From Eubacteriales bacterium (GTDB taxonomy: Bacteria > Bacillota > Clostridia > Saccharofermentanales > UBA5734), in assembly GCA_028685755.1 (NCBI GenBank), contig JAQUDJ010000011.1, forward strand, positions 1-42,716: a stretch of DNA of 42,716 nucleotides, in the 5' to 3' direction. This document shows, in pieces, positions 6,602-8,629 of this stretch; the stretch's first letter is position 1, and each line of letters begins with the position of its first letter. Made by a program: the position numbers and the translations under genes. Below the pieces are notes generated by a model. That model did no database searches, had not been told where the DNA came from, and saw nothing but the letters and a program-made list of their open reading frames with translations.

Positions 6602-6725
6602 ATTTTCCTCCAAGTCTTGTGCCTTTTTAATTGATCTTGTTTAAACGTTTGATTTACCTATTCATCTTACATCAGAATTCCAAGGTTGCCTGCGCTCATG
6701 TTACATCAGGCTGCACATTCGCCTG

Positions 6726-6734
6726 TGCTATAAT
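6726..6734 (+). promoter_or_regulatory. Extended -10 promoter for the kinase-like gene
   Basis: TGCTATAAT (6726-6734) is identical to the element before the DUF3783 gene. It lies 28 nt before the GTG start at 6763, with GGAGG (6750-6754) between. No convincing -35 is seen. Confidence 0.55.
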
Positions 6735-6762
6735 TAATTCAATCTATATGGAGGCCGTCGCA

Positions 6763-7686
6763 GTGCCAATCATCACGATTTCTCGACAAATAGGCAGCCT
6801 TGGCGACGAAATTGCGCAAGCACTCGCTCAAGAGCTCGGTTGGGACCTCATCGATCGCAGTCAATTGATTGACCGTTTTTTCAAAGACACAACCGACGCG
6901 CGCGAACGTCATTTATTGACGGAAAGTGCACGTTTTTTTTTGAATACGGCTTCGACGGGGGTTTCATATCTTGACCAATTACAGCGCGGACTTTTTCAAT
7001 TAGCCGGAAATCATTCCCTTATTTTGCTCGGTTTTGGCTCGCAGGTCATTTTCAGTGATCATCCCCAGGCCATTCACGTAAGAATCACTGCACCACTCGA
7101 CGTGCGTTTGGCACGTGTGGCTGCTGATTGTCATGTCACCCACGAGCAAGCGGAGCAAATGCTCGAGACAGCAGACCGCCGACATCGCCGTTTTGTCCAA
7201 ACGGTCTTCGAAGTCGATAGCGCAGATGAAACACTCTACCATCAGATGTTGAATACCGGCTATTTATCAGTTCGTGAAACAGTCGACGTGATCGTGGCAT
7301 TGCTTCAGATTCGCGAGATCCATGCAGCCCCTGAAACTACACAGCCTTCAGTCAACCCTTCACCGCTAATCCCATTTAAAAATACGTCAGAAGCCGAATT
7401 CGCCAAAATACTGGACATGCATCAAATCCAATGGGCTTATGAACCAAAGACTTTTCCGGTCGAATGGGACGCGGAAGGAAATGTGACACTCGCCTTCAGC
7501 CCTGACTTCTATTTAACGCAATTCGACACGTATATTGAGCTGACGACAATGAACCAAAAATACGTAACCGAGAAAAATAAAAAACTGCGTCGTGTCCGTG
7601 AACTCTATCCGGGCACTCACATCAAAATTGTCTATAAACGTGATTTTGCTGCATTAATTGAACGATTCAGTCAATTCAGCTCTTAA
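6763..7686 (+). CDS. Cytidylate kinase-like domain fused to a PD-(D/E)XK-like domain
   Basis: A 307-residue two-domain protein. Residues 1-~190 match the cytidylate-kinase-2 family: the start PIITISRQIGSLGDEIA is a P-loop-like nucleotide-binding segment, followed by WDLIDRSQL and a basic lid with ADRRHRRF. Residues ~205-307 form a separate domain (YEPKTFPVEWD, SPDFYL, YIELTTMNQKYVTEKNKKLRR, YPGTHIKIVYKRDF). Its order resembles a PD-(D/E)XK nuclease fold: Pro247-Asp248 then Glu259, but the third position is Thr instead of Lys, so nuclease activity is doubtful. Start: GTG at 6763 has GGAGG 8 nt upstream; the upstream in-frame codons overlap the RBS and promoter. Located 45 nt before the hpt-like gene, so probably one operon tied to nucleotide metabolism. 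Confidence 0.75.
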   Translation: MPIITISRQIGSLGDEIAQALAQELGWDLIDRSQLIDRFFKDTTDARERHLLTESARFFLNTASTGVSYLDQLQRGLFQLAGNHSLILLGFGSQVIFSDHPQAIHVRITAPLDVRLARVAADCHVTHEQAEQMLETADRRHRRFVQTVFEVDSADETLYHQMLNTGYLSVRETVDVIVALLQIREIHAAPETTQPSVNPSPLIPFKNTSEAEFAKILDMHQIQWAYEPKTFPVEWDAEGNVTLAFSPDFYLTQFDTYIELTTMNQKYVTEKNKKLRRVRELYPGTHIKIVYKRDFAALIERFSQFSS

Positions 7687-7731: not shown

Positions 7732-8286
7732 ATGACAGACTTGACTGACAGTATCCGCGTCAAGCGCACCCTGTTTTCAGCCGATGTGATTCAAGCACGG
7801 ATCCGCGAAATCGGCCAACAAATCCATGATGATTACCGGGGACAAGACTTGGTCCTTGTTGGTGTACTCAAAGGTTCGCTTTATACTATAGCCGACCTGT
7901 CGCGGGCGATTGATCTGCCACTTAGGCTTGATTTCATGACGATCGGGACCATTCCGAATACAACGCATCAGACGGGTGTCGTGCGCATCACGAAAGATTT
8001 AGACGTTGATGTTACTGGTAAACACGTGCTTTTGATCGAAGATATTGTTCGTACCGGATTGACTACTGCTTACCTCGTACAGAACTTACTTGCACGTCAA
8101 GCTGCAAGTGTTAAAGTCTGTTCTTTACTCGTCAATCCCGACCAACAGTTGATTAATGTCCCCATCGCTTATTTTGGTTTTGAAATTTCCCAAGCATGGC
8201 TCATCGGGTATGGGATGGATGTCAATGAACAGGGACGCAATCTGCCGTATATTGCCGAAATCGAAAAGTTGACCTTAAGAAACTAA
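7732..8286 (+). CDS. hpt: Hypoxanthine phosphoribosyltransferase-like protein with altered PRPP loop
   Basis: A 184-residue type I phosphoribosyltransferase of the HPRT family, which would salvage hypoxanthine/guanine with PRPP. Visible: the cis-peptide loop LVGVLKGS, the flexible region after RLDFMTI, the PRPP motif VLLIEDIVRTGLT, and the C-terminal DVNEQGRNLPYI. In classical HPRTs the PRPP motif is EDIIDTG, and the Asp before TG is the proposed catalytic base near purine N7; here it is Arg. The acidic pair Glu-Asp is kept. The enzyme may still bind PRPP, but base specificity or activity could differ. RBS AGGGGG upstream of the ATG. Probably cotranscribed with the kinase-like gene. A hairpin follows the stop at once. 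Confidence 0.82.
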   Translation: MTDLTDSIRVKRTLFSADVIQARIREIGQQIHDDYRGQDLVLVGVLKGSLYTIADLSRAIDLPLRLDFMTIGTIPNTTHQTGVVRITKDLDVDVTGKHVLLIEDIVRTGLTTAYLVQNLLARQAASVKVCSLLVNPDQQLINVPIAYFGFEISQAWLIGYGMDVNEQGRNLPYIAEIEKLTLRN

Positions 8287-8320
8287 AAAAGAGAATTCGT
8301 CTTTTTGCAACGAACTCTCT
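8285..8320 (-). terminator. Intrinsic terminator of the minus-strand ncRNA (partly bidirectional)
   Basis: Inverted arms 8290-8300 and 8310-8320 (AGAGAATTCGT / ACGAACTCTCT, one mismatch) with a 9-nt loop. Read on the minus strand it is followed by six T (8290-8285), a good terminator for the RNA at 8285-8595. On the plus strand the trailing sequence is TTTCT, so it may also end the hpt transcript less efficiently. Confidence 0.75.
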
Positions 8321-8595
8321 TTCTGGAATAGAAGCGCTCCAGCGAACCTGTTAGATTTTCTCTACTCGTGTACCCTTTAACTGCTACTTGGATCGGATTG
8401 TCAGAAGCGATGGGTTAGATTTACTCGGTTAGACTTTCATCCAGACTTTTCTGATCGGGCCGGTTCGTCATCTGTGCAACTGATTGTGACTTGTGAATAC
8501 TTTCGCACTCCGTCAATCACTTTTCACTTTCCCAACCTATAAGGTCAGGCGGTACTCATCGGGTAAATGAATTTCTTTGGAATTCCCTGGAGCGT
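8285..8595 (-). ncRNA. Structured non-coding RNA candidate, about 310 nt, class unassigned
   Basis: This region has no gene but has a promoter, nested helices and a terminator. Closing helix P1: 8587-8594 (CGCUCCAG in the RNA) with 8335-8342 (CUGGAGCG), perfect 8 bp, starting right at the predicted 5' end. Inside: hairpin 8543-8549/8531-8537 (7 pairs including G-U, UUAUA loop); hairpin 8505-8510/8495-8500 capped by a GAAA tetraloop; GUACC 8551-8555 with GGUAC 8370-8374; possible UGAUUG 8514-8519 with CAAUCA 8481-8486; and CGAACC (8461-8466) with GGUUCG (8343-8348), perhaps a pseudoknot or alternative. UCUAAC occurs three times in the 3' half. I found no hallmark of tmRNA, RNase P, SRP RNA or 6S RNA. 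Could belong to a Clostridia large-RNA class I cannot recall precisely. Confidence 0.62.
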
Positions 8596-8601
8596 AATTT
8601 A

Positions 8602-8629
8602 AGTTTACTACGTTCTGCACAAGTGTCAA
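8602..8629 (-). promoter_or_regulatory. Promoter of the minus-strand ncRNA
   Basis: Consensus -35 TTGACA (8629-8624), 16-bp spacer, -10 TAAACT (8607-8602) read leftward. The predicted start near 8595 coincides with the first base of closing helix P1 (from 8594), which supports both calls. The stretch 8630-8727 downstream of proB shows nothing else I can name. Confidence 0.6.

Follow-up and report, generated by a model that had tools for sequence, protein, structure and literature searches.

Our results suggest that the DNA analysed here, a stretch of 42,716 nucleotides (the window), encodes a member of a new family of structured RNAs. Positions 8336 to 8593 of the minus strand are very probably an RNA gene. 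We think it likely that this RNA is a stand-alone molecule that acts in trans, probably as part of a ribonucleoprotein (RNP), a function that we infer from sequence. The original prediction had described a structured RNA of about 310 nt with its own promoter and terminator, and it named no strand. All of the listed elements could be located, and the coding strand of the RNA is the minus strand. The features of the locus are as follows.

8602–8629, minus strand: sigma-70 type promoter, TTGACA, 16-nt spacer, TAAACT (from the sequence; position relative to P1 kept in homologues)
8587–8594, minus strand: P1, 5' strand (CGCUCCAG), pairs with 8335–8342 (window fold; compensatory variants in L105/L106/L119, L187, L191 and L184/L185/L188)
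8336–8593, minus strand: structured RNA, 258 nt counted between the outermost bases of P1 (folding and homologues)
8551–8555, minus strand: P2, 5' strand (GUACC), pairs with 8370–8374 (unconstrained MFE fold; permutation covariation)
8532–8549, minus strand: P3, G-U-rich hairpin (covariation; window fold)
8524–8529, minus strand: P6, 5' strand (AAGUGA), pairs with 8405–8410 (permutation covariation)
8486–8520, minus strand: P4 stem (GUGAUU/AGUCAC) bearing the GAAA-capped hairpin P5 at 8495–8510 (covariation; window fold)
8405–8410, minus strand: P6, 3' strand (UCGCUU), pairs with 8524–8529 (permutation covariation)
8370–8374, minus strand: P2, 3' strand (GGUAC), pairs with 8551–8555 (permutation covariation; window fold)
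8335–8342, minus strand: P1, 3' strand (CUGGAGCG), pairs with 8587–8594 (window fold)
8286–8324, minus strand: intrinsic terminator, 16 pairs and a T run, abutting the 3' end of hpt
7732–8286, plus strand: hypoxanthine phosphoribosyltransferase gene (hpt), a convergent neighbour kept across families and in another class
6631–7686 (start may be 6751), plus strand: gene for a cytidylate-kinase-like (PF13189) protein with a conserved C-terminal domain, upstream of hpt and in the same orientation

Including the terminator, the predicted transcript runs from about 8595 to 8285 on the minus strand. As originally claimed, a TTGACA promoter lies at the base of a perfect 8-bp closing helix (P1, CGCUCCAG/CUGGAGCG), which bounds the RNA at 8593/8594 and 8335/8336, and a strong terminator, with its 16-pair stem and T run, ends it. 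The interior holds no open reading frame of more than 31 amino acids on the minus strand, as expected from the claimed lack of coding potential. The window promoter has 10 of 12 consensus matches over both boxes, with a weak -10 box. Among 54 copies, the best TATAAT-like hexamer is at -14 relative to P1 in 34, and both boxes have at least four of six matches in 38. Because the promoter is kept at a fixed distance from P1 among copies, transcription would start at P1 throughout the family. At the other end, a T run follows immediately after P1 in most copies. Some copies (L006, L031 and L032, for example) carry GGGUUC-GCUG-GAGCCC immediately before the T run, a potential small terminator hairpin that could rival the 3' strand of P1.

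The minus strand of the window copy folds with an energy of -89.7 kcal/mol versus -72.7 +/- 5.1 kcal/mol for shuffled sequences (z -3.3), and none of 100 shuffles is as low. The plus strand folds less stably relative to its shuffles (z -1.8). The helices are nested: P1 encloses P2, P2 encloses the P3 hairpin and P6, and P6 encloses P4/P5 and a variable domain. P1 to P5 all appear in the unconstrained fold of the window; P6 is missing from it and is weaker in this copy than in many relatives. The GAAA-capped hairpin and the G-U-rich hairpin of the original prediction correspond to P5 and P3. Two other predicted elements fared less well. The three UCUAAC repeats are present in the window copy and are not kept in homologues, while the possible pseudoknot (UCAGG/CCUGA) is genus-specific and found no support as a family feature. 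We dropped both because they are missing from other genera.

Covariation in homologues, one of the checks named in the original prediction, is strong. For P3, P4 and P5 together (36 sequences), 90.7% of 643 cells are paired versus 66.5% in shuffles, and there are 147 double-sided changes versus 41.3, although kinship among the sequences makes such counts less than independent. None of 500 shuffles is as good, and the signal collapses once the partners are shifted by one column. An 11-sequence seed alignment, which is free of model fitting, gives 92.4% paired cells and 36 double-sided changes versus 13.4; alignments A4 and A5, having been fitted to the structure, are biased towards it. Long-range helices were tested by comparing how each copy's 5' strand pairs with the 3' region of that copy and with those of other copies. 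For P2 and P6 none of 10,000 permutations is as good, and the same holds with 20 representatives; for P7 the number is 53 of 10,000. Two control segments are not significant in the same test. P1 itself occurs in at least four compensatory forms (GUUCCAG/CUGGAAC, ACUCCAG/CUGGAGU, GCUCUAG/CUAGAGC and GCUCCAA/UUGGAGC). Its ends read GCUCCAGGGAAU ... UUCGCUGGAGC and differences from these are compensatory. P2, P3, P4/P5 and P6 all covary.

How widespread is the RNA? BLAST finds it in all four sister genomes and in one further genome of the family, and in a few others as short matches. The 3' end pattern, UUCGCUGGAGC followed by a T, retrieves the RNA across the order, and a covariance model built on the 5' core detects it in 65 of 188 genomes of the order, with broad presence in genus g30 and family f1. 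With a broader model, families f4, f10 and f65 of the class gain members as well; homologues in other families of the class are those in G199, G285, G354 and G341. The same model matches one genome of another class, G806. Model E-values are rough, and P1, the promoter and the gene context provide independent support: in G806 the P1 strands read GCUCCAA/UUGGAGC, the promoter contains TTGACA and a convergent hpt comes immediately after the RNA. The counts are lower bounds, because both models missed G023 and G026 in the genome searches, two genomes in which the RNA lies beside hpt. Since such genomes turned up through gene context, the family is probably wider than the present count. MAG contigs bearing homologues are labelled Eubacteriales, Clostridiales or Clostridiaceae. 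Some matches were set aside: G463 (L149, E 4e-4) has neither closing helix nor promoter and is an apparent chance match. In an overly strict pattern scan of named genomes (GCCGCC), 11 of 16 matches had titles from unrelated phyla and were taken as chance; the other five are real.

Homologues share the ends and helices of the RNA and range from 244 to about 600 nt in length. In family f1 and several others they measure 244 to 345 nt, in family f2 mostly 396 to about 600 nt, and some of the f2 forms have an insert in P3. Five f2 copies (L021, L022, L025, L029 and L030) are 583–588 nt long, with domains additional to the 258-nt window copy. G006 and G013 each contain three matches to the model. 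Tandem copies occur at L101 (5941 and 6485), L189 (1965 and 2660) and L190 (3408–3810 and 4000–4310), in G013, G030 and G028. Each tandem copy has its own promoter-like sequence, and both G013 copies have their own promoter. At L150 (G030) the second tandem copy continues into a long array of GATCAAAA units.

Could the RNA be a diverged member of a known large family, such as raiA/ModT, OLE, ROOL, GOLLD, 6S, RNase P, SRP or tmRNA? Its size and its layout (stand-alone, sigma-70 promoter, closing stem, terminator) are similar to theirs. The Rfam check proposed by the original prediction, however, matched no known class. At gathering scores, Rfam 15 has no match in the window, and at E up to 10 the RNA stretch yields only sub-threshold matches at chance level (OrzO-P, FMN and others). 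The 18 homologue loci, searched at E up to 0.5, give a single unrelated sub-threshold match. The claim that the RNA is not tmRNA, RNase P, SRP or 6S also stands. This genome has its RNase P RNA (RF00010) at G000:C13:58040-58385, its 6S RNA (RF00013) at G000:C9:6866-7054 and its bacterial large SRP RNA (RF01854) at G000:C35:186046-186253, and none of these three models matches the RNA stretch. Neither ARAGORN nor Rfam finds a tmRNA in the window; the genome's own tmRNA was not located.

Among the large families, raiA/ModT is the obvious comparison. It is a stand-alone structured RNA of little over 200 nt with a sigA-type promoter, is found in Clostridia and acts in trans in C. difficile (PMC11706538). 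Our RNA is likewise stand-alone, has a sigma-70-type promoter and occurs in Clostridia, but its conserved motifs are different. The raiA model (RF03072) does not reach its gathering score and is absent among the matches in the window (E up to 10) and in the 18 homologue loci (E up to 0.5). raiA is present in 25 of 148 class genomes, with a clearly different conserved sequence, and in none of 20 relatives of this genome. Covariance models of OLE, ROOL, GOLLD, HEARO and other large Rfam RNAs match neither the window nor the 18 homologue loci. OLE RNA (RF01071) is described as large, ornate, found mainly in Bacillota and working as an RNP (PMC12054373); it is about 600 nt long versus 258 nt for the window RNA. 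ROOL and GOLLD (RF03087, RF01998) are large structured bacterial RNAs whose function is unsettled (PMC12286853); a viral scan for the window RNA's pattern was empty. 6S RNA is also stand-alone and in a comparable size range, but it forms one long hairpin whereas the window RNA is branched. A literature search, which did not extend to bioRxiv, found no paper describing the RNA. Hidden membership in a known family is very improbable in our view. As judged from sequence and covariance models, the RNA family is unrelated to any described family that could be tested.

The most frequent neighbour of the RNA is an operon of the kinase-like gene and hpt. In the window, the terminator of the RNA (8324–8286, minus strand) abuts the last base of hpt in opposite orientation. 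The gene pair adjoins the RNA in 26 of 48 fetched loci, on either side of the operon; this count includes L102, which showed the kinase gene only, and among the remaining 22 loci, some are cut off too near the RNA to judge. Of 211 class genomes, 9 have the long form of the kinase, and in 7 of the 9 the RNA lies beside it; two of these 7 were found only by looking beside the long kinase gene. The N-terminal part of the protein is kinase-like by its modelled fold. The C-terminal extension has invariant PDF.L and Y.E.T.M motifs of the PD-(D/E)XK type, and the order of strands and helices predicted for it in the full model agrees with PD-(D/E)XK. The protein also has weak PADLOC and DUF790 matches. 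Folded alone, the C-terminal part gives a poor model (pLDDT 43), so that the tentative assignment to PD-(D/E)XK draws on the motif, these weak matches and the topology predicted for the whole protein. The linkage between RNA and operon may also reflect inherited position instead of shared function, because the RNA lies away from the operon in many loci and the operon occurs without a detected RNA in G034 and G338.

One could argue that the RNA controls hpt expression as a cis element of the operon, either as a long antisense RNA overlapping the 3' end or as a bidirectional terminator. Indeed, the RNA and hpt converge in the window (8324–8286 versus the hpt end at 8286) and in most hpt-linked loci. 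However, only the terminator tail contacts hpt, and antisense action needs no conserved internal helices. In L111, L187 and L191 the RNA lies at the opposite end of the operon, next to the kinase-like gene, and the two diverge. The sister species of the same genus (G001 to G004) have both the RNA and its promoter, next to other genes; neither hpt nor the kinase gene is nearby (flanks of about 6 kb were covered, 2.5 kb on one side in G004). We consider control of hpt in cis quite unlikely. Even smaller is the chance that the RNA is a leader or riboswitch of a downstream gene, which would be extremely improbable. The next downstream open reading frame is on the same strand in 15 of 40 judgeable loci, but it is convergent in the other 25 (picks are crude in G+C-rich loci), and the T run straight after P1 in most copies does not suit a leader. 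A leader role, or an effect on hpt that is purely local, is thus unlikely, because G001 to G004 keep the RNA with no such operon nearby, G013 and G006 have several model matches, G013, G028 and G030 carry tandem copies, and 25 of 40 copies face a convergent gene.

Alternatively, the RNA could be the noncoding part of a mobile element or phage, or it could belong with the kinase-like protein to a defence system. The possible nuclease-like domain of the neighbour, to which the PADLOC and DUF790 matches point, would fit such an origin, as would the copies that are in tandem or at other sites in some genomes. Yet the 3' end pattern has no match in IMG/VR, the position beside hpt is kept across families and in another class, and presence in family f1 and genus g30 is broad. 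We see only a slim chance for a phage, mobile or defence RNA.

A trans-acting, stand-alone RNA hence is our preferred reading. Such an RNA would be transcribed from the sigma-70-type promoter at the base of P1 and ended by a terminator, and within an RNP it would have a housekeeping-type role in trans, as scaffold or regulator. raiA/ModT and OLE RNAs are thought to act similarly. The original prediction considered such size and complexity typical of catalytic or scaffold RNAs; a scaffold or regulatory role is the likelier one, and the catalytic role found no support. The first candidate for a protein partner would be the product of the neighbouring operon, the nucleotide-kinase-like protein with its added C-terminal domain that is encoded with hpt. 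It is conceivable, if rather unlikely, that the new RNA family forms an RNP with this unstudied protein, in which a nucleotide kinase is joined to a PD-(D/E)XK-like domain, and that hpt links the RNP to purine salvage. If true, Clostridia would keep a nuclease or nucleotide-processing complex that is guided or regulated by RNA.

By kind, the RNA belongs with the large orphan RNAs; by family, it is new. Few large bacterial RNAs are both conserved and structured without being leaders, and several of them (raiA/ModT, OLE, ROOL and GOLLD) have served as leads to new RNA biology. The family described here is not confined to one order: at least three further families of the class have it, as does a single genome from another class. 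It offers helices backed by covariation, a promoter that is conserved and a gene pair that often lies beside the RNA, and therefore a partner that is testable at once.
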